From the NCBI GenBank assembly GCA_017305055.1, contig JAFKMZ010000031.1, positions 1 through 50,004 on the forward strand: a DNA stretch of 50,004 bases. The letters are read 5' to 3'. The DNA is from Lysobacterales bacterium (GTDB taxonomy: Bacteria > Pseudomonadota > Gammaproteobacteria > Xanthomonadales > Rhodanobacteraceae). This document shows positions 13,967-47,255 of this stretch, one piece after another. Both the position numbers and the translations under genes were made by a program. The notes beneath the pieces were generated by a model. That model was not told the origin of the DNA. It did no database searches and saw only the letters and a list, made by a program, of their open reading frames with translations. Numbering within the stretch: position 1 is the first letter of the stretch; every line of letters begins with the position of its first letter.

Positions 13967-14268
13967 GACTCGCTCCGGGTTGAGGGTGGGCTGGGCAGCG
14001 CGCGGCTTCGCATGAAGCGAGCCAACTGACTTCGTCTGATAACAGCCATGCGCCTGACCGGGCAAGGTACGGCGCAACATGCCGACGCCCTGCAACGGTT
14101 TTCACGGCGCCAGCGCGTGTGGCGTTCGCTGCCGACCGCGTATTGTATCGTGCGCTGCCCGGCTCCGCTCTTTGTACCGTCGTGGGGCGGCTTTGTCCTT
14201 GTCGTGAATCAGGGCCTGGACGGGCGGCCGCGGTTACCATGTCCGTTTCGGGGACGGTGCGACCAGAC
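13967..14268. other. Divergent promoter region between the bkd operon and kynA
   Basis: This 302-nt stretch lies between two divergently transcribed genes and has no supportable gene of its own. A small hairpin (gcttc-gcat-gaagc) occurs near 14007. A TATTGT sequence near 14141 could be a -10 element for kynA. No Bkd or Lrp operator could be recognised with confidence. Confidence 0.35.
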
Positions 14269-15111
14269 ATGAGCGAGAACCAGCGCGAAATCGAAGCCGA
14301 GGTGCAGACCGACCTGCATGGCCGCGTGACCTATGCCGGATACCTGCACCTGGATACGCTGCTGTCGGCGCAGCGGCCGGTGACCGACCAGCACGACGAA
14401 ATGCTGTTCATCGTGCAGCACCACGTGGCCGAGTTGTGGATGAAGCTGCTGTGGCACGAGCTGCGGGCCGCGATCGAGCACCTGCGGGCCGACGATGTCG
14501 ACACCTGCCTCAAGATCCTGGCGCGGGTCAAGAAGATCCAGAGCCAGCTGTTCGAGCAGTGGTCGGTGCTGGAAACCCTGACCCCGTCCGAGTACCTGAG
14601 GTTTCGTGACCAGCTCGGCTCCTCGTCCGGGTTCCAGTCACTGCAGTACCGCAAGATCGAGTTTGGCCTCGGCAACAAGAACGCCGGCATGCTCCAGGTG
14701 TTCAGCTACGACCCGGTCGCGCAGGCCGAGCTCGAGGCGGTGCTGCGCTCACCCAGCCTGTACGACGAGTTCCTGCGCTACCTGGCGCGGCGCGGCCACG
14801 CCGTGCCGGCCGGGCTGCTCGAGCGCGACTGGACCGAGCCGTATCGGCGACACGCGGAGCTGGTCCCGGTGTTCAAGCGCATCTACGACGGACGCGCCGA
14901 ATTCTGGTCCGAATACCACATGTGCGAGCAGCTGGTGGACGTGGAGGAGAGCTTCCAGCTCTGGCGCTTCCGCCACATGAAGACCGTCGAGCGCATCATC
15001 GGCCACCGCCGCGGTACCGGCGGCTCCTCGGGCGTGGATTTCCTGAAGAAGGCCCTGGACCTCGAATTCTTCCCGGAGCTGCTGGACGTGCGCACGGTCC
15101 TGGAGGGCTGA
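14269..15111 (+). CDS. kynA: Tryptophan 2,3-dioxygenase
   Basis: This haem enzyme opens the indole ring of L-tryptophan to N-formylkynurenine, the first step of the kynurenine pathway. Family features are the N-terminal [15 protein letters not shown], the substrate-contacting [48 protein letters not shown], the haem-ligand region [15 protein letters not shown], and the GTGGSSGV loop. The length is 280 residues from the ATG at 14269. An in-frame ATG at 14239 is possible, but the chosen start gives the family-like N-terminus ([16 protein letters not shown]). A hydrolase follows after 14 nt. Confidence 0.93.
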
Positions 15112-15125
15112 GCATCGGGTACGGC

Positions 15126-16151
15126 ATGGCGTGGTCGTTTGCCTGTCCGCCAGCCCTGGACGCCGAGCGGGACGACACGGGACCAGCAGACGTGGACAAC
15201 ACTTTCGTCGAACCAGCCATGCAGCCCATCATCACGGCCATGCGGGCGGCGTCGGCGCGTGCAACGGGGCAGCCGGTGACGCCGGAACAGATGCGCCTTC
15301 GGGCCGCCCTCCAGTTCGCATATTGGAATCGTCAGCCGCCCGTACTGGCGCAGGTGCGCGATCTGGATATCCCCACGGGCCGCGGCGTGCGCCGGGCACG
15401 CTGGTATGACCCGGATGGACGGCTGCAGGCGCCGCTGTTGCTCTACCTTCACGGCGGTGGCTGGGTGCTGGGTGACCTGGACATCGAGGATCGGGCGCTG
15501 CGCACGCTGGCTTTGGAAAGCGGCGCCAAGATCGTGTCGCTGGATTATCGGCTGGCCCCCGAACATCCGTTTCCCGCCGCCATCGAGGACACGGTGACGG
15601 CCTTTGCCTGGCTGCGCAGGCATGCGCAGGAGCTTGGCGGTTCGGCACGCGCTCTGGCGTTGGGCGGAGCGTCGGCGGGTGCCGATATCGCGCTGGCCGC
15701 CGCGCTGCGCCTGCGCGATGAAGACCTGCCATTGCCGGCGCAGTTGCTGCTCTTCTACGGGGTCTATGGCGTCGACCGCAACACCGAGTCCGATCGCCTG
15801 TTCGGTACACCCGAATTCAGCGGTCCGCTGGCCAACATGGAGCTGTTCTATGCCTCGTATGCCGGTTCACCAGAGCGAAGGCGCAATCCCCTGGTGGCAC
15901 CGCTGTTGGCGGATTTGAAGGGCCTGCCGCCGACCTTCCTCAATGCAGCCGGAATAGACCCCTTGCGCGACGACAGCCGGCAACTGCACGATCGGTTGCG
16001 GCAATCGGGGGTCCCGGTGCGCTATTGGGAATATCCCGGCGTGGTGCACGGATTCACCCAGTTCACCTTGACCAGCGCCACGGCACGCAAGGCGCTGGCG
16101 GACGCCGGTGCCGCCATCCGCTCCCGGCTGGCGGGAGCGGCGTTGACCTGA
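15126..16151 (+). CDS. Alpha/beta hydrolase of the HSL esterase/lipase family, next to kynA
   Basis: The oxyanion-hole motif HGGGW and the nucleophile elbow GASAGAD are present, as are the catalytic aspartate region (GIDPLRDDS) and histidine (VVHGFTQF), so this is a complete HSL-type hydrolase of about 341 residues. The substrate is unknown. The 14-nt gap after kynA suggests co-transcription, and the kynurenine pathway needs an arylformamidase, a role filled by alpha/beta hydrolases in eukaryotes; that assignment is only an inference. Starts at GTG 15192 or ATG 15220 would give shorter versions closer to the common family length. Confidence 0.75.
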   Translation: MAWSFACPPALDAERDDTGPADVDNTFVEPAMQPIITAMRAASARATGQPVTPEQMRLRAALQFAYWNRQPPVLAQVRDLDIPTGRGVRRARWYDPDGRLQAPLLLYLHGGGWVLGDLDIEDRALRTLALESGAKIVSLDYRLAPEHPFPAAIEDTVTAFAWLRRHAQELGGSARALALGGASAGADIALAAALRLRDEDLPLPAQLLLFYGVYGVDRNTESDRLFGTPEFSGPLANMELFYASYAGSPERRRNPLVAPLLADLKGLPPTFLNAAGIDPLRDDSRQLHDRLRQSGVPVRYWEYPGVVHGFTQFTLTSATARKALADAGAAIRSRLAGAALT

Positions 16152-16212: not shown

Positions 16213-18345
16213 TCATTCGCGGTAATTGGCTGCGATCATCGTCAGTGGCGCGACAGGCTGGAAGATGCAGACCAGTTGGTCGTCTTCCCGCGCGCAGTCC
16301 AGTTCCGCGCCGTCCGGAACCGTGGCCAGGCCGGTCCAGGTCATGCCGGGCTGGGTGCGCAGACGGAGGGTCACCTTGCCGGGGCGTGGCGCGGGAACCT
16401 CATCGCTCAGGTGCAGCAAGCTGAGCATCCAGCGGCTCGCCGCGGGCTGTCGAAAAGCGGTCATCCACATGCGGGATCCCGCATCGCAGGTGACGGACCA
16501 GGTGTCGCCTCCGAGCCAGCGCATGATATGGATGAACAATGCCTCGTGTGCCGCGTCCGGCCCGGACTCGATGCTGGCCGCACAATAGATGGCCTGTCCG
16601 CTGCCGAATCGGTGGCGGACGACGGTAGGACATCCGGTTGCCTGCCACGGTGGCGAACTGTGGATGCTTGCCCAATCCCCGCCGTCGATGGTTCCCGTAC
16701 TGGGGTGGGCGTAGGGCAAATTCAGCGTCAGCAACGATTCGGCCCCAGGAGCACGGGTGATCCGCAGGACCGTCGGCTGGTCCGCCGGCCCTACCCGCTG
16801 ACTGACGAAGCGTTGGCCGGCGATTGCCCCTGCGCTGGCTTGTCCAGTCGGTTCCAGGTAGACCATGGTGCCGCGCTCGGCCTGCTCGAAGTGGCAGCCG
16901 AACACATCCGCCAGCGCAAAATCCCGGTGACGAACACCGTGCGTAGCCGTCAGTGAGGTGAATGCCGACGCATAGACGTTGCCGCCGCCATCGACATATT
17001 GCCGGATGGCAGCCACCTCCGCATCGTCCATACGCAGGACATTGGGCAATACCACCACGCGATAGCGGTTCAAGTCCGGCAGTTGCCTGCGGGTGATGAC
17101 GCCGAACGGCAAGTGCGCACGTTGCAGCATGCCGCAAACCCCTTTGAGCGCACGCAAGTGGGGATACTCCATGGGCGTGTCCACGGGGGCGTCGGCAAGC
17201 GCCTTGCCGTTGTCCGCGAAGCTCATCTTCGAGTCGTCGCTGAAATACACGCCAATCTCCTCGACCGGCTCACCGCCTGCGTATGCCGCAAACGGCACGG
17301 CTTGCGCAAAGGCCTCACGGCAACGTGCGATGGCGGCAGGGTTCACGCTGCCATCCGGATCAATCGCCACGATCAGCAGGCAAGCCGATCCACTGGCCGT
17401 CGCAGTCAGATTCTGCAAGCCCAGAACCTGGACCGACTTCAACTGTTCATGTTCAGCCAGGTCGTTGGCGACCGTGGTCATGAACTCGACGGGCCGATGG
17501 ACCGAGAGATTGAGCATCAGCCTGGACATCAGCAATTGCTCCTGCGTGCCGGCATAGAAATCGCCGCCAAGAAAATCATTACCCTGCGCCGAGGAGAAGC
17601 CGACACCGCGTGTCCAGTTCGCCGCCGCGAGGGCGAAGTTGTGGTAGACGTCGACGTCCGCCCGCAGGCCGTGGATGTGCTGCCGTATCTGTATGGCGAG
17701 TTCAGTGATCCAGCGCTCCCGCGCCGCCTGGAACCCGCACCAGTCCGGGTCCAGCCAGTCGATCGTCTCCGGTATCGGCTTGCCGGCTTCGGCGCGGTAG
17801 CGCTCACGGCAGTGTCGGCAGACGCATACGGCCATCCACCAGAGCATGTCGCAAAATACGGCGTCGACGTCGTACCCGGTGACGATTTCCGTCAGCTGAT
17901 CCAGCACGAACTGACGATAGTGTGGATGGTTCAGACAGCACAGGCCGTAGCGTGCGCGATGCAACAAGCCGCCCCCGATCAAGCCTTCTGCGGCTGGCTC
18001 AAGTTTCCAGTCTGGGAATTTCTGCGCAGCCCAATTGTTGAAGTTGACGCTGTAGTACGCGCATGCGGGAAGGTCGTGGTGGCGTGCGCGCCGCAACGCG
18101 AGTGCGACGGGGTCGGTGCCCTGGCAGGCCCGGTGTTGTTGCCCGGTTTTGGTCGGCCAGTAGCACAGGCCAGTGTGGGACTGGAAATACAGCATCATCG
18201 CGTCGGCACCCGTGGATGCCACCTGGTCGACGACCGCGACCGGGTCGTAGTGCGCCAGGAAGCGTGGATCCCAGTCGGGTATATGCATGTCGATGAGCAT
18301 GCGCCGGCAGCTCATCCGGTATCGCCGCCGTAATGGTGCAGTCAT
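16213..18345 (-). CDS. Putative glycoside hydrolase (GHL6-like N-terminus with beta-galactosidase trimerisation-like domain)
   Basis: The 710-residue protein has no signal peptide. Residues ~20-330 look like the TIM barrel of the hypothetical glycosyl hydrolase 6 group: GADAMMLYFQSHTGLCYWPT, VNFNNWAAQKFPDW, then VDAVFCDMLWWMAVC followed by a CxCxxC cluster (VCVCRHCRERYR). Residues ~390-520 resemble the GH42 trimerisation domain (LPFGVITRRQLPDLNRYRVV, VLPNVLRMDD, YVDGGGNVYASAF). The C-terminal ~150 residues are beta-rich. Substrate is unknown; the neighbourhood suggests a rhamnose- or deoxyhexose-containing glycoside. ATGs at 18315 and 18300 are alternative starts. Confidence 0.7.
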   Translation of the reverse strand: MTAPLRRRYRMSCRRMLIDMHIPDWDPRFLAHYDPVAVVDQVASTGADAMMLYFQSHTGLCYWPTKTGQQHRACQGTDPVALALRRARHHDLPACAYYSVNFNNWAAQKFPDWKLEPAAEGLIGGGLLHRARYGLCCLNHPHYRQFVLDQLTEIVTGYDVDAVFCDMLWWMAVCVCRHCRERYRAEAGKPIPETIDWLDPDWCGFQAARERWITELAIQIRQHIHGLRADVDVYHNFALAAANWTRGVGFSSAQGNDFLGGDFYAGTQEQLLMSRLMLNLSVHRPVEFMTTVANDLAEHEQLKSVQVLGLQNLTATASGSACLLIVAIDPDGSVNPAAIARCREAFAQAVPFAAYAGGEPVEEIGVYFSDDSKMSFADNGKALADAPVDTPMEYPHLRALKGVCGMLQRAHLPFGVITRRQLPDLNRYRVVVLPNVLRMDDAEVAAIRQYVDGGGNVYASAFTSLTATHGVRHRDFALADVFGCHFEQAERGTMVYLEPTGQASAGAIAGQRFVSQRVGPADQPTVLRITRAPGAESLLTLNLPYAHPSTGTIDGGDWASIHSSPPWQATGCPTVVRHRFGSGQAIYCAASIESGPDAAHEALFIHIMRWLGGDTWSVTCDAGSRMWMTAFRQPAASRWMLSLLHLSDEVPAPRPGKVTLRLRTQPGMTWTGLATVPDGAELDCAREDDQLVCIFQPVAPLTMIAANYRE

Positions 18346-18502
18346 TGCAGGTCAGCCCCGCGATGCGTTGGGAGGAGAAGATTGCGTTGCCGGCGCCGGT
18401 GCGTGGCGCGCCGTTTGGTCCAGCCCACGCTTGCCGGTACCAGCACCAGCGGGATGCTGGACAAGGGCGGCACCATCATCCAGGTGACCCGGGAGAACGT
18501 GT

Positions 18503-19282
18503 CTAGCGCTGCAGCAGGCCGGACTGGAAACCGATCGCTACGGCATGACAGCGGTTGCGCGCTCCGAGCTTCTGGAACACGTTGGCGAGGTGGAAGCGGA
18601 CGGTCGATGCGGAGATCGACATGGCATCGGCAATCTGGATGTCGTTGTGGCCGCTGGCAAGGCATTCGAGAATCGCCACCTCGCGCTGGCTCAGGTCGGG
18701 AAACACCGGCTCTGGCAACAACACGCGCGTCAGGGCCTGGTACAGCATCGGACGCAGGGCACGCAGAACCAGTGGCCCGCGTTGATCGCCCCGGCCCGGT
18801 GAGGTGATCACCGAACACAGTGCGATGCGGCCGTTGAACACCACGCCGCTGGCGAATCCATAGCCGAGGCGACCGTGGTCCCGTGCCGCTTCCAGGAAGC
18901 GCTCAAGCGTGGGCTTGCGCGGTCCTGTCCTGACCATCGCGTTGTTCTCGGCGATCGTTCCTGAGCGGCTGAGGAAGCGTTGGCCGTTGACGATGGCCTG
19001 GACGATCGGGTCGACCAGGACAAACTGCTCGCGCAGATACAATTCCATCCACTCGGGGTCGTAGCCGGAACCGATGACACGCGCATCCGGCAACGTCCCG
19101 ATCGTGCCGGTAGCCACCACGATTTCACTCAGGTCGAGCCATTCCCGCAGGCTGTCCAGGCAATCGGCCAAACCGCTGCGGCTGGACAGCGACAGCAGTT
19201 CCTCCCCGTGCGCAAACAAGCGCTGGCGGTCATTGGCGCACAGTCCGTTGGTTGCTTCGTCGACCATCAGTGACTGCGTCAT
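18503..19282 (-). CDS. LuxR-family regulator with AHL-binding-like domain (LuxR solo)
   Basis: The 259-residue protein has an N-terminal autoinducer-binding-like domain and a C-terminal LuxR helix-turn-helix (LSQREVAILECLASGH, then ADAMSISASTVRFHLANVF). In the ligand domain W78, Y82, D91 and P92 occur with exactly the spacing of TraR W57, Y61, D70 and P71, whereas the W85 position is not tryptophan. ATG 19282 is chosen because ggaggga lies just upstream. No luxI-type synthase gene is in the window, so it may sense a signal made by other cells or a non-AHL ligand. It lies inside the glycoside locus and probably controls it. Confidence 0.85.
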   Translation of the reverse strand: MTQSLMVDEATNGLCANDRQRLFAHGEELLSLSSRSGLADCLDSLREWLDLSEIVVATGTIGTLPDARVIGSGYDPEWMELYLREQFVLVDPIVQAIVNGQRFLSRSGTIAENNAMVRTGPRKPTLERFLEAARDHGRLGYGFASGVVFNGRIALCSVITSPGRGDQRGPLVLRALRPMLYQALTRVLLPEPVFPDLSQREVAILECLASGHNDIQIADAMSISASTVRFHLANVFQKLGARNRCHAVAIGFQSGLLQR

Positions 19283-19377
19283 GAAGTCTCCCTCCTCGAC
19301 ATGCGCTGCCTGGGTCCGGGAGCCGGGTCGCGCTGCCAACGCGCCAACGCTAGCACAGTGGCGTCGACGGGCCCGGT

Positions 19378-20775
19378 TCATCCCGACGTGCCACCGCCGG
19401 ATTCCGTGAAATCCGCGCGCTTGAGGCGGTAGGCATGGAGCAGCCAGGCTATCACCGGCAACAACAGCAGCATCAGCAGTGCGGGATACACCGCCAGGTC
19501 GTAGCGGGTTGCCGCCGTCTGCACCGGGGTGCTGCTCTGGTAGCCGATGAAGCCGAGCAGGACGCCGCTCCCGGCGATGCTCAGGCTGCCCCCCAGCTTG
19601 TAGGCGAATATATACAGGCCGGTATAGGTTCCGCCCAGGTTGCCGCCACCGGCGCGTTCTCGCGCGTGGGCACAGTCGGTCACCATGGCATAGGGCAGTG
19701 ACCAGAACGCCCCGTTGCCCAGGCCGGCCAGTATCTGGAACGGCAGCAGGGTGGCGACCAGATGCGCCGATGGTTCGAGTGGAAACCAGTGCCAGGCCAC
19801 ATGGGTCAGTGGGGCGCCGACCAGCCCGACGGCGGCCAGGGCAATGGCAGCATACAAGGCGGGTTTCTTGTCGAAGCGCCTGCTCACCTTGATCCACAAC
19901 GGCTGTGCCACAACCGCCGAGAGCAGCAAGGCCACCGCGAGGATGGCGATTTGTGGGCCGGCCAGGCCGTAGGTGAAGGTGTTGATGTGGAATCCCAGGG
20001 CCACCGTGAGCTGCACGCCCATTTCGGTCACCAGTATCATCAGCACCAGCGCACGCAGATTGCGGTCACGCAGGACGTCGCGGATCGCATGCCAGTCCAG
20101 CCTGGGCGTGTCGCGCTCGGCGCGCATCCGCGGGATGAAGCGCCAGGTACTGGTCACCGTGACCAAGGTCACCACGAGCACCAGGATGGCGCAGGCCCAG
20201 CCCATGGGTGGGTAGACCGCGGGGTTGAGTTGGCCTTGCGGAAACGCAGGCGTGGGCCGAAAGAACCAGGCGCTGCTGCCGACCAGGGCCAGGGCCATGC
20301 CGAGCACCTGGAAGGTGGCCCGATAGCCCTGGGCGACGGTACGGGCGTCGTAGGTGGTGACCAGATCTCCGCCCATGGCGGTGTGCGGCACCACGAAGGT
20401 GCTGATCGCGGTCTTCAGCCCGACCAGTGCCACGGCCAGCCAGGTCGTCTTGAGCCACAGGTCGAGCCCGGACGGGATCGACCACAGCAGCACGCTCAGC
20501 ACGGCAATGGCCACTCCGCCAACGATCAGGAACGGGTGGCGGCGACCCAGGCGTTGCGAGCGCGTGTGGTCGGACATCCAGCCCAGCGGCAGGTCGACCA
20601 GGGCATCCCACAGGGTCGAGGCCGCCATCACCAGGCCGGCGACATCCGGCGGTACGTGCAGGATCGCAGTCGCGTAGAACAGGAACGAGGTGCTGACCAG
20701 ATAGTAGGCCGCCAGCACCATACTGCCGCTGCCATAGCCGGCCAGTTGCCAGGGACGCAGTGCCGGAGCGTTCAT
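19378..20775 (-). CDS. MFS transporter of the glycoside-pentoside-hexuronide:cation symporter family
   Basis: The 465-residue protein has about 12 hydrophobic segments and the GPH-family loop between helices 2 and 3 (DLPLGWMSDHTRSQRLGRRHPFL), which matches the melibiose-permease-type D...G...D-x(n)-GRRRP pattern. It probably imports a sugar or glycoside with a cation across the inner membrane. The start at ATG 20775 (MNAPALRPWQLAGYG) gives the usual short N-terminus. It lies between the regulator and the TonB-dependent receptor, all on the minus strand, which fits a transport role in the same locus. Confidence 0.82.
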   Translation of the reverse strand: MNAPALRPWQLAGYGSGSMVLAAYYLVSTSFLFYATAILHVPPDVAGLVMAASTLWDALVDLPLGWMSDHTRSQRLGRRHPFLIVGGVAIAVLSVLLWSIPSGLDLWLKTTWLAVALVGLKTAISTFVVPHTAMGGDLVTTYDARTVAQGYRATFQVLGMALALVGSSAWFFRPTPAFPQGQLNPAVYPPMGWACAILVLVVTLVTVTSTWRFIPRMRAERDTPRLDWHAIRDVLRDRNLRALVLMILVTEMGVQLTVALGFHINTFTYGLAGPQIAILAVALLLSAVVAQPLWIKVSRRFDKKPALYAAIALAAVGLVGAPLTHVAWHWFPLEPSAHLVATLLPFQILAGLGNGAFWSLPYAMVTDCAHARERAGGGNLGGTYTGLYIFAYKLGGSLSIAGSGVLLGFIGYQSSTPVQTAATRYDLAVYPALLMLLLLPVIAWLLHAYRLKRADFTESGGGTSG

Positions 20776-20846
20776 CCGGGACAGTGTGCCGGAACAACCA
20801 GGCGTCGGGATGCGCAAACCTCACGTCGGGAAGTGCCCACGGTCGC

Positions 20847-23126
20847 TCAGAACCGGTAGCGGACGTCGACGCCGAACGTACGCAGCACGGGCGCGTTGAC
20901 CAGGGCCTGGAACAACTGCAGCCCGGGCCGCTGGTGGGTGGCGAACTGGAAGGTCGTCGCCGGATCACCGGTGAACACCGCGCCCGGCGCATCCTTGTTG
21001 TTGAGCAGGTTGTCGACCCACAACGACACGCGCACCCGCCCGTTGTCGAAACCGGTGTTGAGGTTGAACAGCCTGCCGGCCGGGATGAGCGCCGTACCGG
21101 TCTGGATGGCGACCATGTTCGAGCGGTACTGCCCGTCCAGGCGGGTGGTCCAGGTCCAGCCGTTGCCGAGCGGCTGCCGGTTGATCACACTCAGGTTGGC
21201 GGTATGCCGCGGTGCGTACTGCAGCCGCACGCCCGACAGGTCGGGATTGCCGCCGAGCAGGGCCACGATCGGGAAGATGTACTCGTCGTACCTGGCGTTG
21301 TTGAAGGTGCCGCCCAGCTTGAACGACCAGTTCTGGTTGGCGTCGTACTGGAGGTTGGCTTCGATGCCCTTCGAGGTGGTTTGCCCGGCGTTGGTGTTCA
21401 GCAAGGCGCCCATCGAACCGATGGTGCGCACGATCTGGTCGCGCCAATTGATGCGGTACACGTCCATGTCGAGCAGCATGCGGCCGTCGAGCAGGCTGAA
21501 CTTCGCCCCGAGTTCATAGTTCGTGCTGCGCTCCGAGTCATAGGAGCGTTCATCCGGGGCGATGGCGCCGTTGGCCGTGAAGGTGTTGAATCCGCCCACC
21601 TTGATGGCCTTGACCGCGCTGGCGTAGAAAGTGCTGGCCTGCGACGGCTTGTAGGTCAGGTACAGGCCTGGCGTGAACGGCGTGAACGTGCGTGACGCGC
21701 CAAACAACGTGGTCGGCCCGGCGGGAAGCTTGGTGGTTGCGGCGTTGGCCGACTTGGTCTCGCGGGTATAGCGCAGCGCCAGGCCCAGATCCCACTGCGG
21801 GGTCATGTGCCAGGTTGCCGTGCCGTATACGGCAGCGCTGCGGGTGCGCTCACGGTTGTCGCTGCTCAGGCCACCGAGGGGAGCGGCCGGGCCCACGTAG
21901 GGGCTGTCGTCGACGTGGTCGTCGCTGAGGTGGTAGTAGTACACGCCGAGCAGCCAGTCGAAGTGCTCGTTGCCCGGCGAAACCAGTCGCAAATCCTGGC
22001 TGATCGACGTCTGCGGGCCGTCGGTTCCGGCCATGGCGACCTGCGCCGCCGAGTAGTCCGAGTCGTACTCGTAGTCGAGCTTGAGGTGGTTGTATGAGGT
22101 CACCGAGGTCAGGGTGGCCCAGTTCATGTCGTAATTCACCGTCAGCGATGCCAGGACACTGTCGCGATCAAAGTGGCCTGGGGTGACCGCAAAGCCGTCG
22201 GTCAGCGACGGCAGTTTGCCGAAATACTGCTGGTTGTCGTTGAAATTGTGCGCGAACCCACCGTTGTTCGGGACGAACTGCTGGGCAAAATCGCGCCGTC
22301 GCATGCCGTCGTAGATAAGGTTGAACTGCCCGTTCAGGCGGTCGGTAGGCGCGCCGTCCAGGGTCAGGAAGGCGCCGCGGGCGCTGGTCTTGTCCAGTTT
22401 TTTCCCGCTCAGTTCGTTGCGGTAGAAGCCGCCGAAATCATTGCGGGCCACGCCCACCCGGTAGTGGTACGAGGATCCGTCGGAGAATGGTCCGGAGGCG
22501 ACGGCCCTGGCGTCACGCCGGGCGTGATTGCCGACACCAAGGCTGATCGAGCCTTCCTGCTTGTTGCTGGGTGCCTTGGTGATGAAATTGACGGCACCGG
22601 CAAAACTGTTGCGGCCATACAGGGCGTACTGCGGCCCCTTGGCCACTTCGACGCGCTCGATGTTGTCGGCCAGCATGAAGTCGAGCGCGTTGCGCGAGGG
22701 GATGTACACGCCGTCGATGAAGAAGCTGACGTTGGGCTCGCCGATGGTGGTCGACAGGCCGCGGATGACCACGTTCGACGCGGCCGGGCCGGCCACCGGG
22801 ATCATGGTGATGCCCGGAGCGAGCATGGGCAGGTCGGCCGCGCTGGTGATCCGCGCCGATTCGATGTCCTGTGCCGTCACTACGTTGATCGCGATCGGTA
22901 CATCCTGCATCAGCTCGACGCGCTTGGTGGCGGTGACCGTGATGCCTGCGAGACTGGTCGGCTGCCCGGTCCCTGCCGGTGCCGGCGTACCAGCTTCCTG
23001 GGTCGCCTGCACGTTCGGGACTTCGGCTGCGCTGGTGCCTTCGGTCCCATTCGGCAGCGCGTAGGCTGGTTGCAGCACCAGCGCGGCAACGACGGCCAGA
23101 GTCAGGTTGTTGGACTTGATGTTCAT
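20847..23126 (-). CDS. TonB-dependent outer-membrane receptor
   Basis: The protein of 759 residues carries a signal peptide (hydrophobic stretch LTLAVVAALVLQ), a TonB-box-like ITVTATKR, and a plug domain with DVPIAINVVTAQDIES, NVVIRGLSTT and VEVAKGPQYALYGRNSF. A 22-strand barrel ends in GVDVRYRF with the terminal phenylalanine expected for outer-membrane insertion. ATG 23126 gives a proper signal peptide; upstream in-frame ATGs do not. Such receptors import siderophores, vitamins or large glycosides. With glycosidases, an esterase and a sugar symporter around it, import of a glycoconjugate is the likeliest role. It is the first gene of the leftward arm and lies behind the lux-like box. Confidence 0.88.
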   Translation of the reverse strand: MNIKSNNLTLAVVAALVLQPAYALPNGTEGTSAAEVPNVQATQEAGTPAPAGTGQPTSLAGITVTATKRVELMQDVPIAINVVTAQDIESARITSAADLPMLAPGITMIPVAGPAASNVVIRGLSTTIGEPNVSFFIDGVYIPSRNALDFMLADNIERVEVAKGPQYALYGRNSFAGAVNFITKAPSNKQEGSISLGVGNHARRDARAVASGPFSDGSSYHYRVGVARNDFGGFYRNELSGKKLDKTSARGAFLTLDGAPTDRLNGQFNLIYDGMRRRDFAQQFVPNNGGFAHNFNDNQQYFGKLPSLTDGFAVTPGHFDRDSVLASLTVNYDMNWATLTSVTSYNHLKLDYEYDSDYSAAQVAMAGTDGPQTSISQDLRLVSPGNEHFDWLLGVYYYHLSDDHVDDSPYVGPAAPLGGLSSDNRERTRSAAVYGTATWHMTPQWDLGLALRYTRETKSANAATTKLPAGPTTLFGASRTFTPFTPGLYLTYKPSQASTFYASAVKAIKVGGFNTFTANGAIAPDERSYDSERSTNYELGAKFSLLDGRMLLDMDVYRINWRDQIVRTIGSMGALLNTNAGQTTSKGIEANLQYDANQNWSFKLGGTFNNARYDEYIFPIVALLGGNPDLSGVRLQYAPRHTANLSVINRQPLGNGWTWTTRLDGQYRSNMVAIQTGTALIPAGRLFNLNTGFDNGRVRVSLWVDNLLNNKDAPGAVFTGDPATTFQFATHQRPGLQLFQALVNAPVLRTFGVDVRYRF

Positions 23127-23152
23127 GCGCAAATCCCCGGGGGTTCCGCCGA

Positions 23153-23158
23153 GCATAA
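23153..23158 (-). promoter_or_regulatory. Candidate -10 element for the TonB-dependent receptor gene
   Basis: On the minus strand these bases read TTATGC. A start site at about 23146 would place this hexamer at -12 to -7, leave a 20-nt leader to the ATG at 23126, and put the centre of the lux-like palindrome at -42.5, the position of the lux box at the classical luxI promoter. A second copy of the heptamer gcataac lies 22 bp to the right (23175-23181), abutting the palindrome. Confidence 0.45.
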
Positions 23159-23178
23159 CCATGTGCATCGGGTCGCAT

Positions 23179-23198
23179 AACTGTCAAAAATGACAGGT
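23179..23198. promoter_or_regulatory. Lux-box-like operator centred between divergent genes
   Basis: The 20-mer is AACTGTCAAAAATGACAGGT. Its core, 23181-23196, is a perfect palindrome with six-base arms (ctgtca/tgacag) around aaaa and fits the CT-N12-AG pattern of LuxR-family boxes. It agrees with the Vibrio fischeri lux box at 12 of 20 positions, including the outer ACAGGT half. Its centre, 23188.5, is exactly midway between the receptor ATG (23126) and the hydrolase ATG (23251). An adjoining second hairpin (ggtgcc-aa-ggcacc) occupies 23196-23209. Control by the LuxR protein at 18503-19282 is inferred. Confidence 0.65.
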
Positions 23199-23250
23199 GC
23201 CAAGGCACCGGAGCAGTCGCTAGCATCGTGGCTTGCCAGAGAGATCCGAC

Positions 23251-24087
23251 ATGCCCCAGACCGAGCTTCGTCCGCAACCCCGGGTGTCCTACGTCACGTT
23301 CCCGAACGCGGCCCGGGAGCGTCCCCTCACCATCGCGGGGCAGTTGCGCGTCCCGGCGCGCAATGGCGACGCTCCTGCGGTGGTGATCGTGCACGGTACC
23401 GCCGGCGTGGACAGCCGCGGCAGCTATCACGCCCAGGCGCTCAATGACGCAGGTATCGCCACGCTGGAGCTGGACATGTGGACGCCACGCGGGCTGAACG
23501 GTGGCGCGGGCCCTGGCGGGCGCCCGGAAGGCGTCCCGGAAACACTGCCGGATGCCTACGGTGCGCTCCTGTATCTCGCCTCGCGTCCGGGGATCGACCC
23601 GCAGCGCATCGGCATCACCGGGTTTTCCTGGGGCGGTGTGGTATCGATGCTGACCGCAACACGGCCGTACAGCGACTTGTACATGGGCGCCAATCCACTG
23701 CGCTTCGCGGCACATGCACCGTTCTATCCCGTGTGCTGGGGCTACAACAAGATTCCCGGTTACGAATTTGCCGAGCTCACCGGGGCGCCGGTCTTCATCC
23801 AGAGCGGAGAGTGCGACGCCTACGACGAGCCCGGTTCATGCACAGAGCTGGTCGACGGACTGCCCGAACAGGCGCGGCATCGGGTCACAGTAACCATGTA
23901 TCCCGACGCGGTGCACGCGTTCAATCGCCTCGAGCCGGCACAAACTGTGAGTGATCCCTTTGCCCATCTCGGACGGGGCGGCGAGGTGAGATTCGAGGCC
24001 AACCTGGAGGCTGCGACCAAGTCGCGGCAGGCTACGGTGGACTTCTTCACGCACGCTTTCGCTGGGGTCGGACAGGCGCACGGCTGA
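23251..24087 (+). CDS. Dienelactone-hydrolase-like alpha/beta hydrolase
   Basis: The 278-residue protein has an alpha/beta hydrolase fold with VVIVHGTAGVDSRG, the nucleophile elbow GFSWGG (serine rather than the cysteine of true dienelactone hydrolase) and a late YPDAVHAFN histidine. There is no signal peptide. ATG 23251 is preceded by agagag at a suitable distance. It is the first gene of the rightward arm, diverging from the receptor gene across the lux-like box and followed by the GH78 gene. An ester-cleaving role on an acylated glycoside or its aglycone is inferred from the setting. Confidence 0.8.
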   Translation: MPQTELRPQPRVSYVTFPNAARERPLTIAGQLRVPARNGDAPAVVIVHGTAGVDSRGSYHAQALNDAGIATLELDMWTPRGLNGGAGPGGRPEGVPETLPDAYGALLYLASRPGIDPQRIGITGFSWGGVVSMLTATRPYSDLYMGANPLRFAAHAPFYPVCWGYNKIPGYEFAELTGAPVFIQSGECDAYDEPGSCTELVDGLPEQARHRVTVTMYPDAVHAFNRLEPAQTVSDPFAHLGRGGEVRFEANLEAATKSRQATVDFFTHAFAGVGQAHG

Positions 24088-24146
24088 GCACACGATGACG
24101 GCGCGCACATGCGTGGACCACCGTGTTTCAGGAGGGCTGCGAGCCA

Positions 24147-26651
24147 ATGCCGGAGCAGAAGTTCCCGCGCCGTGCCGAATGGATCTGGCGTCCGCGCCAG
24201 CTCGATGGCCCCGCTTTTGCGACCGAAAGCCTGCGGGTTGCTGAAGAGGCGAACCGCTACGTCCATTTTCGCCTGGACATCCAGGTCGCGGGCACCATCA
24301 CGTCGGCGAAGTGCCTGGCATCGGCTGACGGGCGCTACCAACTATACGTCAACGGCGTGCTTGCCGGTCGCGGCCCCGGTCGTTGCAGCCCGTCGCAGCA
24401 ATCGCTGGATGACTACGACCTGGCCGGGTATCTCAGACCCGGGCGCAACGTGATCGCCGTGCTGGCGCATGCCTACGGCCGGCACACGGCGTGGTACGAA
24501 CTGCCGGGATGGGAACATGGCCGTGCATTCGGTTGTGGCGGGTTCTTCCTGCAGGGCGAAGTCATTGCCGGGTCAGGCTCCGTGCGGCTGGACACGGGAC
24601 CACAGTGGCGCTGCCAGGAGTCGGCCGCATGGCGGCGTGACGTGCCATCCAACAGCCTGGGCTGGATGGAGCACTACGATGCGCGCCGGGCGCCTTGCGG
24701 ATGGACGGCCACGGATTATGACGACCGCGAATGGCCTGCGGCCCAGGTGCTGCGGTTGCCCGGACGCAATTTCTCCGGGGACGTCGTGCCTTTCGGGATG
24801 ATGGTGCCGCGGCGGATCCCACCCATGCGTGAGGCCCTGTCCGTGCCCGCTCGGGTCGTTGCGATGCACGAAACGGATGAGGTGCCGACGGGGGATCTTG
24901 CCGAACAGATATCCAGGGAACGACTGCGTCCGCTGACGCGTTGTGCCGCCAGCCAGGAGCCCACGACGATCCGCACCGAAGGTGAGCGCGCAGTAGTGAT
25001 CGTGTACGACTGTGGTGAAGTCCTGGCCGGCTACATTCACCTCGATCTGGACGGCCCCGCCGGGGCCATCGTCGACGTCGTGCATGGCGAACAGCTGCTG
25101 GCCGGTGGGCGGGTGCGGATCTTCGGCGGCATCGATGGTTTCGACCCTGTTCCCGCGCACCGCTATGTACTGCGCGAAGGCGCACAGTCATGGGAGCGCT
25201 TCGAGTGGAGCGGGCTGCGCTATCTGCAACTGACCATCCGTCGCTGTCCGCGCCCGCTGCGGGTGGGCAAGGTTGCGCTGCGCGAAACCGGCTACCCGGT
25301 TGAGGCGGTCGGCTCTTTCGAGTGTTCCGATCCGCTGCTCGACCGCATCTGGCAGGCCGGTGCCACCACCCTGCGCCGCTGCATGCATGATGGCTATGTC
25401 GACTGCCCGTCGCGGGAGCAGCGCCAGTGGATGGACGGCTATCTCAGCGCACGCATCAATTACGTGACCTTCGGCGATGCGCGGCTGGCGGCGCAGATGT
25501 TGAGCCAGGTCGCGCAGTCGCAACAGCCGGACGGGCTGACCATGATGGCCGCGCCGGGCGATTTCGCGCGCCTGGGCTTTACCAACATCCCGGAGTTTTG
25601 CCTGTACTGGATCATGATGATCGACGACCTTGTCCTGTACACAGGCGAGCGCGGGATCGTGCGTGAGCTGTTTCCGGCGGTGATGCGCGCGCTGTGCTGG
25701 TTTGAGCGCCACCTCGACGACGAAGGCCTGTTGGCCGACCTGCCGCATTGGGTGTTCGTCGACTGGGCCGAGCTGGACAAGCGCGGCCAGGTCACGGCCG
25801 TGAATGCCCACTTCGTAGCCGCCTTGCGGGCGGCCACGCGACTCGCGGACATCTGCCGGTATCCGCATGCTTCGGCGCATTTCGACGCGCTGGCCGAGCG
25901 TGTCTGCGCGGCCATCAATGCCTTGTTGTGGGATCCGGAACGCCGGCTTTACGTGGATGCACGGCAGCGGGGCGTGCGGGGACCGCGGACCAGCCAGCAG
26001 GCCAATGCGGCGGCAATTGCCTATGGCGTGGCGCCGCCAGGGCGTTGGCAGCCGATGCTGGATTCCATTCTGGATGAGACCCGGCTGGTCCTGACCCGTT
26101 GCTCGGAACGGGGCGGTGCCGCGCCACACTTCGATGAGCAACACAACATCACGCTGGCCCAGCCGTTTTTCATGCACTTTGTGCACCGTGCGTTGCGCGT
26201 GGCCGGACAGCAGGACCGGATTGTCGGCCAAATCCGCAAGCGTTGGGCGGACATGCTCGCCCACGGCGAAACCACGCTGCGTGAAACCTGGCAGCGGACA
26301 CCGACCACCAGCCTGTGCCACGCCTGGTCGGGTACACCGACGTTCGACCTGTCCACGGACGTGCTTGGCGTGACGCCACTGGCGCCGGGATTCGACCGCA
26401 TGCGCATTGCCCCGACCCTGGCCGATCTGGATTGGGCACAGGGCCGCTACCCCACGCCACACGGGGTCGTTGAAATCGACTGGAGCCTGGACGATGCCTG
26501 GTTCCGGTTGGAGGTTCGACTGCCCGATGGATGCGAGGCCGAATGCATCTGCCCATTGCCGTACCGCTGGCAAACGATCAATGGCGCACCGACGGCCGAT
26601 GCCTCCCTGGCGTTGCAGCCTGGCACCCATTGTCTGACCGCATGCAGGTGA
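24147..26651 (+). CDS. Alpha-L-rhamnosidase-like protein, GH78 family
   Basis: GH78 enzymes release terminal alpha-L-rhamnose by inversion. The 834-residue protein begins with beta-sandwich domains (PRRAEWIWRPRQLDGPAF, YQLYVNGVLAGRGPGR) and then an (alpha/alpha)6 barrel. The catalytic segment DCPSREQRQWMDG carries acidic residues at the spacing seen in Bacillus RhaB (D567, E572). A later segment, ETTLRETWQ followed by HAWSGTP, matches the second catalytic region. The C-terminal beta domain includes FDRMRIAPTLADLDWAQG. There is no signal peptide, so substrate would be cleaved in the cytoplasm. aggagg lies 11 nt before ATG 24147. Confidence 0.82.
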   Translation: MPEQKFPRRAEWIWRPRQLDGPAFATESLRVAEEANRYVHFRLDIQVAGTITSAKCLASADGRYQLYVNGVLAGRGPGRCSPSQQSLDDYDLAGYLRPGRNVIAVLAHAYGRHTAWYELPGWEHGRAFGCGGFFLQGEVIAGSGSVRLDTGPQWRCQESAAWRRDVPSNSLGWMEHYDARRAPCGWTATDYDDREWPAAQVLRLPGRNFSGDVVPFGMMVPRRIPPMREALSVPARVVAMHETDEVPTGDLAEQISRERLRPLTRCAASQEPTTIRTEGERAVVIVYDCGEVLAGYIHLDLDGPAGAIVDVVHGEQLLAGGRVRIFGGIDGFDPVPAHRYVLREGAQSWERFEWSGLRYLQLTIRRCPRPLRVGKVALRETGYPVEAVGSFECSDPLLDRIWQAGATTLRRCMHDGYVDCPSREQRQWMDGYLSARINYVTFGDARLAAQMLSQVAQSQQPDGLTMMAAPGDFARLGFTNIPEFCLYWIMMIDDLVLYTGERGIVRELFPAVMRALCWFERHLDDEGLLADLPHWVFVDWAELDKRGQVTAVNAHFVAALRAATRLADICRYPHASAHFDALAERVCAAINALLWDPERRLYVDARQRGVRGPRTSQQANAAAIAYGVAPPGRWQPMLDSILDETRLVLTRCSERGGAAPHFDEQHNITLAQPFFMHFVHRALRVAGQQDRIVGQIRKRWADMLAHGETTLRETWQRTPTTSLCHAWSGTPTFDLSTDVLGVTPLAPGFDRMRIAPTLADLDWAQGRYPTPHGVVEIDWSLDDAWFRLEVRLPDGCEAECICPLPYRWQTINGAPTADASLALQPGTHCLTACR

Positions 26652-26656
26652 AACCC

Positions 26657-28312
26657 ATGTATATCGACATCGGCAATCCGATCGAGCGCACCGAGTCGGC
26701 CTACGACTTTCCGCTCCTGCTCAAACAGCTGTGGATCTCGCCGCTGGCCAATGCGCCGGATCAGGTCATCGTCTATCGCGACCAGCAGCGCTTCACCTAT
26801 CGCGAGACCTGGGCGCGCCTCGGCCGCCTCGCCTCGAGCCTGACGGGCATCGGCGTTGGGCCGGGCATGACCGTGGCGGTGATGGACTGGGACAGTCATC
26901 GCTACCTCGAGTGCTTCTTCGCCATCCCCATGATGGGCTGCGTGCTGCAGACGGTGAACGTCCGCCTGTCGCCCGAACAGGTCCTCTACACCCTCAACCA
27001 GGCCGAAGCCGATGTCATCCTGGTCCATCATGAGTTCCTGCCCTTGCTGGCCGGCATTCGCGGCAGGCTGGAGAAACCGGTCAAGGCGATCCTCATCCGT
27101 GATGGCGCGTCTGAGCCGACCGCCGGCGATGCCGCCTTCGTCGGCGAGTACGAAGCCCTGCTGGCCGCGGCCAGCGCGGACTACGACTTCCCGGATTTCG
27201 ATGAGAACACCCGCGCCACCACGTTCTTCACCACCGGCACGACCGGTGTGCCCAAGGGCTGCTATTACAGCCACCGCCAGCTGGTGCTGCACACCATGGC
27301 GATCGCCGGCTGGTTCGGTACGGCGCCAGCCCAGGGCCGCATCCATCGTGAAGATGTCTACATGCCGATCACCCCGATGTTCCACGTGCACGCCTGGGGC
27401 GTCCCCTACGCGGCAACCCTGCTGGGGCTCAAGCAGGTATATCCGGGCCGCTACGACGCGGCGCTCATGCTGAAGTTGATTCGCGATGAGGGCGTGACCT
27501 TCTCACACTGCGTACCGACCTTGCTGCAGATGCTGCTGTCCCATCCCGACGCGGCGCACATCGACCTGTCGAAGCTGAAGATGGTGATTGGCGGCTCGGC
27601 ATTGCCGCAGGGACTGTGCCGCATGGCGTTGGAACGGGGCATCGACGTCTTCACCGGCTACGGCATGAGCGAAACGGCGCCGATCCAGGCCGTCATGCAC
27701 CTGAGTCGTGCCGAAATGGCGGGGGACGTCGACAGCCAGGTCGCGCTGCGCGTACGCACCGGCCAGGCCTTCATGCTGTGCGACGTGCGCATCGTCGACG
27801 AGGAGATGAGGGGCCAGGCCCATGACGGGCAAGCCCAGGGCGAAGTCGTGTTCCGCAGCCCATGGTTGACCCAGGGTTACCTGAGTCAGCCCGGCGCTTC
27901 CCGTGACCTGTGGCGCGGGGGCTACCTGCACTCGGGTGATATCGGCAGCATCGACGCCGCCGGCCGGCTGCAGATCCGCGACCGGCTCAAGGACGTGATC
28001 AAGACCGGGGGTGAATGGGTCAGTTCACTGGCGCTGGAAGATCTGATCTCGAGGATGGCCGGCGTCGCCGAGGTCGCGGTGATCGGCGTGCCGGATCCCA
28101 AATGGGGCGAACGTCCGCTGGCCCTGGTGGTTCCCCGCTCCGGCGCGACATTGGAGCCGCAGGCCATCCGCCGGCAGCTCATGGACCTGGCTGGAACGGG
28201 CGACATCCCGACGTACATGGTGCCCGGGCAGATCCGCATCGTCGAGGCGCTGGCCAAGACCAGCGTCGGCAAGCTCGACAAGAAGGCCTTGCGCAGCACC
28301 TATGGCACATGA
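26657..28312 (+). CDS. AMP-forming acyl-CoA ligase, AlkK-like (medium-chain type)
   Basis: The ligase activates a carboxylic acid to its CoA thioester via an acyl-adenylate. Motifs are TTGTTGVPKGCYYSH (P-loop), PMFHVHAWGVPYAA, the YGMSETAP core, YLHSGDIG, and the hinge/lysine region DRLKDVIKTGGEW, with KTSVGKLDKKALR near the end. The middle resembles the Pseudomonas AlkK medium-chain ligase (MFHV-AWG-PY and GGEW). The length is 551 residues from ATG 26657, which has aggtg seven bases upstream; an ATG at 26642 overlaps the GH78 stop. Its placement after the rhamnosidase suggests activation of a released aglycone acid. Confidence 0.85.
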   Translation: MYIDIGNPIERTESAYDFPLLLKQLWISPLANAPDQVIVYRDQQRFTYRETWARLGRLASSLTGIGVGPGMTVAVMDWDSHRYLECFFAIPMMGCVLQTVNVRLSPEQVLYTLNQAEADVILVHHEFLPLLAGIRGRLEKPVKAILIRDGASEPTAGDAAFVGEYEALLAAASADYDFPDFDENTRATTFFTTGTTGVPKGCYYSHRQLVLHTMAIAGWFGTAPAQGRIHREDVYMPITPMFHVHAWGVPYAATLLGLKQVYPGRYDAALMLKLIRDEGVTFSHCVPTLLQMLLSHPDAAHIDLSKLKMVIGGSALPQGLCRMALERGIDVFTGYGMSETAPIQAVMHLSRAEMAGDVDSQVALRVRTGQAFMLCDVRIVDEEMRGQAHDGQAQGEVVFRSPWLTQGYLSQPGASRDLWRGGYLHSGDIGSIDAAGRLQIRDRLKDVIKTGGEWVSSLALEDLISRMAGVAEVAVIGVPDPKWGERPLALVVPRSGATLEPQAIRRQLMDLAGTGDIPTYMVPGQIRIVEALAKTSVGKLDKKALRSTYGT

Positions 28313-28396
28313 GCGCCAGGCGCCGGCGTTGCAACATCGCCCAGTGCGGCAGCAGACCCCGTGATCCAGCGGCCCGACCACCACCCGAGGAACGAC

Positions 28397-28885
28397 ATGG
28401 CAAAGATCGAAGCGAAACTGGCGGCCCTTGGGCTCAGCTTGCCACCGCCGCCCCAGCCACCACCCGGGATTGTCCTTCCCTTCCGGTTTGTGCGGATCCT
28501 CGGCAACCGGGTCCTCATCTCCGGTCACGGACCGCAGAATCCGGATGGTTCCTTTGCGGCACCGCTCGGCAAGCTCGGACGCGAAGTGTCGCTCGAACAG
28601 GGCTACACCGCCGCCCGCCTCGTTGCGCTTTCCATCCTCGGCAGCCTCAAGCGTGCACTTGGCGATCTCGACCGCATTGCGGCCTGGTCACGTGTGCTCG
28701 GCATGGTCAATTCGGCGCCTGGCTTCAACCAGCAACCGAATGTCATCAACGGATTCTCCGACCTCATCCTGGAACTCTACGGTCCCGACGCAGGCGCCCA
28801 CAGCCGCAGCGCCGTGGGTCTTGCCGAGCTTCCGTTCAATATCCCGGTGGAGATCGAGGGCGAAGTCGAACTCGTGCGGACTTAG
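28397..28885 (+). CDS. RidA/YjgF-family protein
   Basis: The 162-residue protein shows the RidA fold: FRFVRILGNRVLISGHGPQN, QGYTAARLVALSILGSLK, RVLGMVNSAPGFNQQPNV and a final beta-strand ending VEIEGEVEL. RidA members deaminate reactive enamines and imines, but this subgroup is longer at the N-terminus, with a proline-rich LSLPPPPQPPPG stretch, and its activity is unknown. gagg precedes ATG 28397. It is the last gene of the rightward arm of the glycoside locus and is followed by a hairpin. Confidence 0.8.
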   Translation: MAKIEAKLAALGLSLPPPPQPPPGIVLPFRFVRILGNRVLISGHGPQNPDGSFAAPLGKLGREVSLEQGYTAARLVALSILGSLKRALGDLDRIAAWSRVLGMVNSAPGFNQQPNVINGFSDLILELYGPDAGAHSRSAVGLAELPFNIPVEIEGEVELVRT

Positions 28886-29589: not shown

Positions 29590-29657
29590 AACCGTATATT
29601 CATTCATTGTTGACAGCGCACCACGCCATGGCACGGCACGCTGCCAGGAGACCAGCC

Positions 29658-30755
29658 ATGAACACCAAGCAGCCCAACCCCGGCATGCACGTCACCACCT
29701 TCGAGAACCCCATGGGAATCGACGGTTTCGAATTTGTCGAGTTTGCCGCGCCGGCCGGCCGGGCCGATGAATTGCGCGACCTGTTCGTGAGGATGAACTT
29801 TACCCCGGTATTGCGGCACAAGTCGCGGCCGATCACCGTGTTCCGGCAGAACGGGGTGAACTTCCTGCTCAATGAGGATCCTGACTCGTTTGCCGCGGCG
29901 TTTGCCGCCAGGCATGGCCCGAGCGCCTGCGGTTTCGCCATCCGCTTCCGCAAGCCGGCCCAGGAGGTGTATCGGTCCGTGCTGGACAAGGGGGCCGAGG
30001 CAGTGGTCGAGCAGGAGGCCAGCAAGGCCGTACCCGCGCCGGTGATCAAGGGTATCGGCGATTGCATGCTCTACCTGGTGGACCGCTACGGCAGTGCCGG
30101 TGACATCTATGCGGACGACTACGTCCCCGTGCCGGGTGCCGAGCAAGACCCCAAGGGCTTCGGGCTGACCTTCATCGACCACCTCACCCACAACCTGTAT
30201 TTCGGCAACATGGAAAAGTGGTCCCAGTACTACGAGCGGCTGTTCAATTTTCGCGAGATCCGCTATTTCGACATCAAGGGCGCCAAGACCGGCCTGGTAT
30301 CGAAGGCCATGACCGCGCCGGATGGCATCGTGCGCATCCCGCTCAACGAGTCGGACAACCCCAAGAGCCAGATCAACGAATACCTCGAGGCCTACCAGGG
30401 TGAGGGTATCCAGCACATCGCCTGTTTCACCGATGATATCTACGCGACGGTGGAAGGCATGCGCGCGGCGGGCGTGCAGTTCCTGGATACGCCGGATACC
30501 TATTACGAGGTGATCGACGAACGGGTGCCGGGCCATGGCGAAGACGTGCCGCGACTGCTCAAGAACCGTATCCTGATCGACGCCGACCCGCAGACCCACC
30601 AGCGCAAGCTGCTGCAGATCTTCACCCAGAACGTGATCGGCCCGATCTTCTTCGAGATCATCCAGCGCAAGGGCAACGAGGGTTTTGGCGAGGGCAATTT
30701 CCAGGCCCTGTTCGAGAGCATCGAGCGCGACCAGATGAAACGCGGCGTGTTGTAG
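29658..30755 (+). CDS. hppD: 4-hydroxyphenylpyruvate dioxygenase
   Basis: This Fe(II) enzyme converts 4-hydroxyphenylpyruvate to homogentisate. The three metal ligands are visible as H175 (FIDHLTHN), H253 (GIQHIACFT) and E333 (PIFFEIIQR). The C-terminal helix region GNEGFGEGNFQALFESIERDQ is typical. The length of 365 residues is normal for bacterial HPPD. aggag lies seven bases before ATG 29658. It is the first gene of hppD-hmgA-fahA; hmgA follows after nine nt. Confidence 0.95.
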   Translation: MNTKQPNPGMHVTTFENPMGIDGFEFVEFAAPAGRADELRDLFVRMNFTPVLRHKSRPITVFRQNGVNFLLNEDPDSFAAAFAARHGPSACGFAIRFRKPAQEVYRSVLDKGAEAVVEQEASKAVPAPVIKGIGDCMLYLVDRYGSAGDIYADDYVPVPGAEQDPKGFGLTFIDHLTHNLYFGNMEKWSQYYERLFNFREIRYFDIKGAKTGLVSKAMTAPDGIVRIPLNESDNPKSQINEYLEAYQGEGIQHIACFTDDIYATVEGMRAAGVQFLDTPDTYYEVIDERVPGHGEDVPRLLKNRILIDADPQTHQRKLLQIFTQNVIGPIFFEIIQRKGNEGFGEGNFQALFESIERDQMKRGVL

Positions 30756-30764
30756 GAGCGGCCC

Positions 30765-32063: not shown

Positions 32064-32091
32064 GCGGTGGCATCACCATCGGGAGCAGTGC

Positions 32092-47102: not shown

Positions 47103-47255
47103 GATGCAGCTCCGGTATCATGTGCGGGCACCCATGTACCCGCGTCGCTGCATTGTCCCGGGCGGGCGAGGTGCATGCAAACCGGCCGGTCCTTCCTGTC
47201 CATACGCAGGCCGCGTGGACGCCGGTATCGCACGCCGGCCATTCCCAGCGGAGAC

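Follow-up and report, generated by a model that had tools for sequence, protein, structure and literature searches.

A candidate LuxR-solo regulon for uptake and dismantling of an acylated α-L-rhamnoside in a Lysobacterales bacterium

Gene content and conservation of the locus

A 50,004-nucleotide stretch of DNA from a Lysobacterales bacterium (family Rhodanobacteraceae; GenBank assembly GCA_017305055.1, contig JAFKMZ010000031.1, positions 1 to 50,004), referred to here as the window and used for the numbering of all positions, contains two divergent gene arms that may form a single regulon for the uptake and dismantling of an acylated α-L-rhamnoside. The genome to which the window belongs (G000) is 97% complete, with 108 contigs and 3.5 Mb. 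Domain calls were made with Pfam and NCBIfam models at their curated cut-offs, solved structures were compared through PDB bit scores, and gene starts were picked by eye from ribosome-binding sites and the start points of homologues. The minus strand carries a TonB-dependent receptor of the outer membrane (20847-23126; PF00593, PF07715), an inner-membrane MFS_2/GPH-type symporter (19378-20775; PF13347 190.7 bits, above cut-off), a LuxR-type regulator (18503-19282; PF03472 36.4 bits, PF00196 65.2 bits) and a GHL6-like glycosidase (16213-18345; PF14871 51.8 bits, PF08532, PF01120). On the plus strand lie a dienelactone-hydrolase (DLH)-family hydrolase (23251-24087; PF01738 57.3 bits), a predicted GH78 α-L-rhamnosidase (24147-26651; PF17389 127 bits with a cut-off of 24.5, and PF17390 49, PF08531 41 and PF05592 26 bits, each above cut-off), an AlkK/AasS-type fatty acyl ligase (26657-28312; PF00501 242 bits; NF004837 602 bits, cut-off 476) and a RidA-family protein (about 28397-28885; PF14588 52 bits, cut-off 35). 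The divergent promoter between the receptor and DLH genes holds an unstranded lux-box-like palindrome, AACTGTCAAAAATGACAGGT, at 23179-23198 (core 23181-23196). Every gene named in an initial annotation of this DNA is present on the strand given there, and that part of the proposed cluster stands; what had been overlooked is an HSL-type esterase (Abhydrolase_3) on the plus strand at the left border (about 15219-16151; PF07859 205 bits on the longer frame).

We compared four Rhodanobacter loci, namely the window, L025 (a single contig of genome G064), L024 (genome G340) and L019 (genome G012), with L024 and L025 deriving from Rhodanobacter metagenome bins. At an E value of 1e-20, a GH78 match was found in five of 45 genomes of the genus, the window's own included; those in G000, G064 and G012 belong to this locus, and those in G027 and G068 are distant (27-28% identity). 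The LuxR regulator, transporter, TonB receptor and DLH-family hydrolase are at or near full length in all four loci, and because at least this gene order recurs in the three other Rhodanobacter loci, their co-occurrence appears to be more than chance. GH78 is intact in two of the four (the window and L024), carries in L025 an in-frame gap that deletes E721 to about residue 779, and survives in L019 as a 78-residue and a 38-residue piece, with the regulator, transporter, receptor and DLH-family hydrolase full length beside the damaged gene in both cases (L025:1090-11974, L019:10268-10611). Some form of the HSL-type esterase persists in all four loci: the window copy is intact, that of L024 is nearly complete and sits at the end of a contig, that of L025 is split, and that of L019 is reduced to a 79-residue piece. 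Part of the damage in the sister loci could be assembly error. The GHL6-like gene, counted as part of the set in the initial annotation, occurs in the window locus only, and its absence from all three sister loci (L019, L024, L025) rules it out as a core component; its product matches the α-L-fucosidase 6tvk weakly (49 bits), and a plasmid search for GHL6 at 1e-20 returned no match. L024 also encodes another acyl ligase, convergent to GH78 (L024:9237-10913), which we rejected as an orthologue of the window ligase given 24% identity and an NF004837 score (254 bits) below cut-off.

The rhamnosidase, the ligase and their neighbors

GH78 enzymes are α-L-rhamnosidases. The solved protein nearest to the window GH78 is rhamnosidase B (RhaB) of Bacillus sp. 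GL1 (2okx), and residues D427, E432, D438 and E721 (numbered from 24123) align with RhaB D567, E572, D579 and E841, which we take to be the key acidic active-site residues of that structure. All four are kept in six of seven aligned GH78 proteins, L025 being the one that lacks the E721 stretch. The identity of 2OKX as RhaB of Bacillus sp. GL1 follows an excerpt of PMC4690510. Relatives were sought in genome contigs by short exact peptide patterns, under which further GH78 relatives may exist, and we retrieved six loci from outside the genus: L026-L029 (57-62% identity), L030 (45%) and L031 (27%). By bin label, L026 and L027 are Proteobacteria from the same bin, L028 is from Alphaproteobacteria and L029 from Chloroflexi. 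Rhamnose genes lie near the GH78 relative in three of the six: L028 encodes RhaEW (1024 bits, cut-off 634), a RhaI-like protein (644 bits, just below the cut-off of 647) and an FGGY kinase; L026 encodes RhaI (692 bits, cut-off 647) and a RhaEW-like gene recognized by Pfam and by tblastn at 56%; and L029 encodes a rhamnulokinase-like gene (490 bits, below the cut-off of 528) and a class II aldolase. The same three loci have esterases near GH78, one of those in L028 being an Abh3 gene, and a 33% GH78 relative on a Prescottella soil plasmid (L084) is accompanied by a GPH transporter, a carboxylesterase and rhamnose genes. The aligned RhaB residues, together with relatives that adjoin rhamnose genes, make rhamnosidase activity a sound reading for the window protein, in line with the initial annotation; no hydrophobic leader is visible by eye, which agrees with the earlier claim that a signal peptide is absent, and the enzyme is probably cytoplasmic.

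Two features of this GH78 clade are recorded as side observations. A gene for an M19 membrane dipeptidase, with no obvious role in rhamnoside breakdown, adjoins GH78 of the clade in L026:14190-15167 (tblastn only), L028:4008-5225 and L029:6237-7238, and so recurs in loci of three bins outside Rhodanobacter. The bin shared by L026 and L027 holds at least three GH78 genes of the clade (L027:996-3512, L027:12839-13405 and L026:10004-12475, one of them truncated where the retrieved DNA ends), alongside TonB receptors, GDSL esterases and MFS transporters.

The locus had been described as self-contained, a claim that fails for rhamnose: it holds no rhamnose-catabolic gene, and the rhamnose genes searched for in the rest of the genome were not found either. 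RhaM gave no match in G000 (five of 14 control genomes matched), nor did RhaI, for which the L028 genome matched as a control but is also the source of the query. The aldolase half of RhaEW was not found in G000, where only the SDR half gave matches, and rhamnonate dehydratase was likewise not found, the two MR_MLE matches above cut-off being of DgcA type (433 and 376 bits against the DgcA-type model, cut-off 400) and a third MR_MLE match falling below cut-off. An L-rhamnose catabolic operon was thus not found in G000 by a search from which E. coli-type RhaA and rhamnulokinase were absent. Because no rhamnose-catabolic gene was found among those tested, the acid part of the substrate is likelier to be the nutrient than rhamnose, and we regard the acid as the likely food.

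The ligase was classed by PDB bit scores, used in place of a phylogenetic tree and with AlkK itself outside the comparison. It scored 615 bits against AasS, 354 against the Thermus long-chain ligase (1ult), 308 against 6ihk and 194 against FadD13, compared with 176 for feruloyl-CoA synthetase and 134 for 4-coumarate ligase (4CL); the AasS structure, 8HSY, is that of Vibrio harveyi according to an excerpt of PMC11271967. The protein thus resembles the fatty-acid type rather than the hydroxycinnamate type, as had been proposed. A plasmid search found 212 records of homologues (30 listed), and we examined seven of these, at 56-62% identity. Five of the seven adjoin genes of β-oxidation, for instance for an acyl-CoA dehydrogenase, a MaoC hydratase or a 3-hydroxyacyl-CoA dehydrogenase, and phaZ is a further neighbor in two of these five. 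The remaining two have no β-oxidation neighbors; on balance the plasmid neighborhoods lean toward aliphatic acids. Relatives of 56-59% identity occur in three genomes from other families of the order, and the best match in other genomes of the genus is 38% (60 genomes searched, G064 not among them).

The transporter scored 113 bits against TIGR00792 (GPH), below the cut-off of 231, and since PF13347 alone was above cut-off we name it only MFS_2/GPH-type. Its nearest solved protein is the lysophosphatidylcholine symporter MFSD2A (63 bits), followed by MelB (20 bits), a likeness that we read as a hint of amphiphilic cargo. The solved proteins nearest to the HSL-type esterase are acetyl esterases and carboxylesterases, and its NF058653 score (252 bits) is below the cut-off of 350. 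The closest plasmid relatives of the DLH-family hydrolase (47-50% identity) lie on three Deinococcus plasmids (L081, L082, L085), and in all three a RidA gene, 66-70% identical to that of the window, adjoins DLH, once in the opposite orientation. No DLH match was found within 5 kb of five further RidA regions (L092-L096), and a class-level search for RidA matched seven of 274 genomes, with the closest relative (L051) among unrelated genes. A role for RidA as partner of the ligase was therefore rejected, and its earlier assignment to the rhamnoside set is not supported either, as no glycosidase is among the neighbors listed in Deinococcus. Because DLH and RidA are neighbors on the Deinococcus plasmids, their pairing may be the older arrangement, with GH78 and the ligase lying between them in this locus.

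The LuxR regulator and its candidate operator

The regulator has both autoinducer-binding and GerE domains, with orthologues in all four loci, and is probably a solo: a LuxI-type synthase (PF00765) gave no match in G000, yet none of 14 control genomes matched either. An excerpt of PMC4338825 gives the canonical residues for binding acyl-homoserine lactones (AHLs) as TraR W57, Y61, D70, P71, W85 and G113. Read by eye, the window protein keeps the W, Y, D and P of this pocket in the right spacing; it departs from the canonical set in that none of the four orthologues has a tryptophan equivalent to W85 after the DP pair and before SGVV. Like described LuxR solos, the regulator combines the two domains; it differs in standing beside a TonB receptor and a glycosidase, with one lux-box-like site and no W85 equivalent. 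The words 'TonB' and 'glycoside' do not occur in the main text of the review PMC10134790.

The regulator, present as annotated, has a candidate site to match: in the divergent promoter, AACTGTCAAAAATGACAGGT resembles a lux box and fits the CT-N12-AG consensus given in a portion of PMC4074388. The window, L025 and L019 share an identical palindrome, of which L024 has a degenerate form. G000 and G012 each contain a single exact copy of the core, CTGTCA-N4-TGACAG, and in each genome it is the one at this locus; G064 has two copies, one of them here, and G340 has none. The second G064 copy (L075, G064:C112:345-360) lies in surroundings that match no locus protein. Since the exact core is present once in a 3.5-Mb genome, and there in the divergent promoter, one LuxR protein may control both arms by binding the palindrome. 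When one mismatch is allowed, sites counted per strand number three in G000, eight in G012, four in G064 and one in G340, compared with one, two, one and zero for a reversed control pattern, and in view of these counts one-mismatch sites away from this locus say little in either direction. Within the window the sole exact core is at 23181, and four sites are reached at up to two mismatches, against a shuffle mean of 1.7 (11 of 100 shuffles reach four). A search of 23050-23350 for sigma-70-type promoters gave no match. With a single lux-box-like site, the ligand of this LuxR solo could be sought by a simple reporter.

Proposed pathway and competing readings

We favor, with slightly better than even confidence, a single LuxR-solo regulon with one operator between its arms, dedicated to uptake and dismantling of an acylated α-L-rhamnoside. 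The LuxR solo would switch both arms from the palindrome, and the intact compound would cross the outer membrane by way of the TonB receptor and the inner membrane by way of the MFS_2/GPH-type symporter. GH78 would then free L-rhamnose in the cytoplasm, the DLH-type hydrolase and HSL-type esterase would cleave ester bonds, and the AlkK/AasS-type ligase would activate the freed aliphatic acid for β-oxidation; RidA and GHL6 are assigned no step. The sequence itself gives the gene families, the RhaB-aligned residues, the conserved gene order, the lux-box-like site and the missing matches for the rhamnose genes tested; we infer the order of these steps, the class of substrate, the binding of LuxR to its candidate operator and the cytoplasmic site of the enzymes.

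Several observations weigh against this regulon. The ligase and RidA genes are intact in the window only, are damaged in L025 and were not found in the L024 and L019 loci, such that co-occurrence in sister genomes, a check suggested with the initial annotation, holds for the core of regulator, transporter, receptor and DLH-family hydrolase (four of four loci) and not for these two genes. The damage to GH78 and Abh3 in L025 and the GH78 fragments in L019 indicate that the core can outlast the degradative part. Among the relatives outside the genus, of which all but L031 were annotated, the genes scanned in L027 include none for rhamnose, though it is from the same bin as L026, and L030 has ABC transporters at its locus. 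A rhamnose gene could have been missed in G000, given its completeness, its division into contigs and the place of E. coli-type RhaA outside the search. Aromatic-acid genes lie within ~4 kb of the ligase homologue in two of the five plasmid regions with β-oxidation neighbors, a benzoylformate decarboxylase in L088 and a 3-hydroxyphenylpropionate hydroxylase in L089. The lean of the transporter toward MFSD2A is weak as a lipid hint, and was set aside as proof of a lipid substrate, because the GPH protein of the L028 rhamnose operon leans likewise (95 bits against MFSD2A, 72 against MelB), with no such lean in E. coli UidB (63 and 129 bits, respectively).

An ordinary rhamnoside-stripping core of receptor, transporter, GH78 and esterases, with ligase and RidA as chance neighbors and an acid that bypasses the ligase, is a serious contender that we nevertheless regard as doubtful. 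It would account for the single intact copy of ligase and RidA among the four loci, for the ten ligase homologues (L020-L022 and the seven plasmid regions) beside which no GH78 match was found in the fetched stretches, and for the position of RidA next to DLH, not GH78, on the Deinococcus plasmids. Only 5 bases, however, separate the GH78 stop from the ligase start, as expected of coupled genes, the gene order is the same in the damaged L025 locus, and pure rhamnose harvest makes little sense without rhamnose catabolism. Somewhat less probable, and in our judgment rather unlikely, is a plant metabolite locus in which a flavonoid, phenylpropanoid or saponin rhamnoside, with a phenolic or acetyl ester, is imported and de-rhamnosylated. 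GH78 enzymes act on steroidal saponins (PMC10653915) and on flavonoid glycosides (PMC11901676). GH78 genes of about 28-30% identity over ~60% of the query also occur in twelve plasmid records from Sphingobium, mainly from strains whose names begin with Tom. The resemblance of the HSL-type esterase to general acetyl and carboxylesterases and the aromatic-acid genes near two of seven ligase homologues point the same way, but 4CL and feruloyl-CoA synthetase give the ligase much lower scores than fatty-acid ligases do, and the locus genes include no GH1 or GH3 β-glucosidase family for the sugar beneath rhamnose.

A rhamnolipid would be a possible substrate that uses most parts of the locus, and the initial annotation had put it forward; nothing in the evidence identifies rhamnolipid itself. 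Taken as one whole, a rhamnolipid-eating regulon, in which the LuxR solo senses the producer through a signal or the surfactant, and in which receptor, lipid-type MFS_2 transporter, cytoplasmic rhamnosidase, hydroxyacid-ester hydrolase and medium-chain ligase together allow the fatty acids of a competitor's surfactant to be eaten and rhamnose discarded, seems to us improbable, and a fixed pathway of this kind is disfavored by the missing ligase in sister loci. A signal-degradation locus, with the LuxR solo sensing an AHL that the DLH-type hydrolase and the ligase consume, is very improbable. In its favor is a weak DLH match with the lactonase model UilS, at 35.5 bits, but this falls far short of that model's cut-off of 400; moreover, neither GH78 nor the esterase would have a role, and LuxR has no W85 equivalent.

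Returning to the favored acylated-rhamnoside regulon, its parts are familiar and their combination looks unusual; overall it reads as a variant among rhamnoside-utilization loci. With L026, L028, L029 and L084 it shares GH78 (57-62% identity in the first three, 33% in L084) and an esterase, with L028 and L084 a GPH transporter, and with L026 and L028 a TonB receptor; it differs from these loci in having no rhamnose-catabolic genes found, a fatty-acyl ligase and no M19 dipeptidase, and in a LuxR regulator where L026 and L028 have DeoR and L084 has LacI. Among AlkK/AasS ligases its closest solved homologue is V. harveyi AasS, but here the gene stands behind a rhamnosidase and not beside β-oxidation genes. 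In passages of a 2016 paper on rhamnolipid uptake (PMC5352749), P. putida was concluded to be able to degrade rhamnolipids by way of a postulated lipolytic hydrolase and a required, rhamnose-freeing naringinase-like enzyme, both hypothetical and described there as yet to be identified. Those passages speak of a β-glycosidic bond, whereas the enzyme here is a predicted GH78 α-L-rhamnosidase with a putative substrate. The locus is thus a small, testable candidate gene set for the enzymes called hypothetical in that part of PMC5352749. Literature searches, with few subscription papers covered, found no paper on rhamnolipid degradation with rhamnosidase, and on Rhodanobacter with rhamnosidase none that, judged by title and the start of the abstract, describes such a locus; further searches showed none among the entries listed.

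Elsewhere in the window, large open reading frames without a family assignment lie at 1261-4641, with an SPRY match below threshold only, and at 45876-47918, which was left out of the domain scan; an RNA-family scan of the window gave a single tRNA. Base composition does not show a horizontal origin, the locus having 65.2% G+C and the window 66.2%. Beyond the HSL-type esterase the left flank holds a tryptophan 2,3-dioxygenase gene (14119-15111), and on the right are a MarR gene and the HPPD/HgmA/FAH tyrosine pathway (29607-33078), so that the locus has tryptophan 2,3-dioxygenase on one side and tyrosine breakdown through homogentisate on the other.

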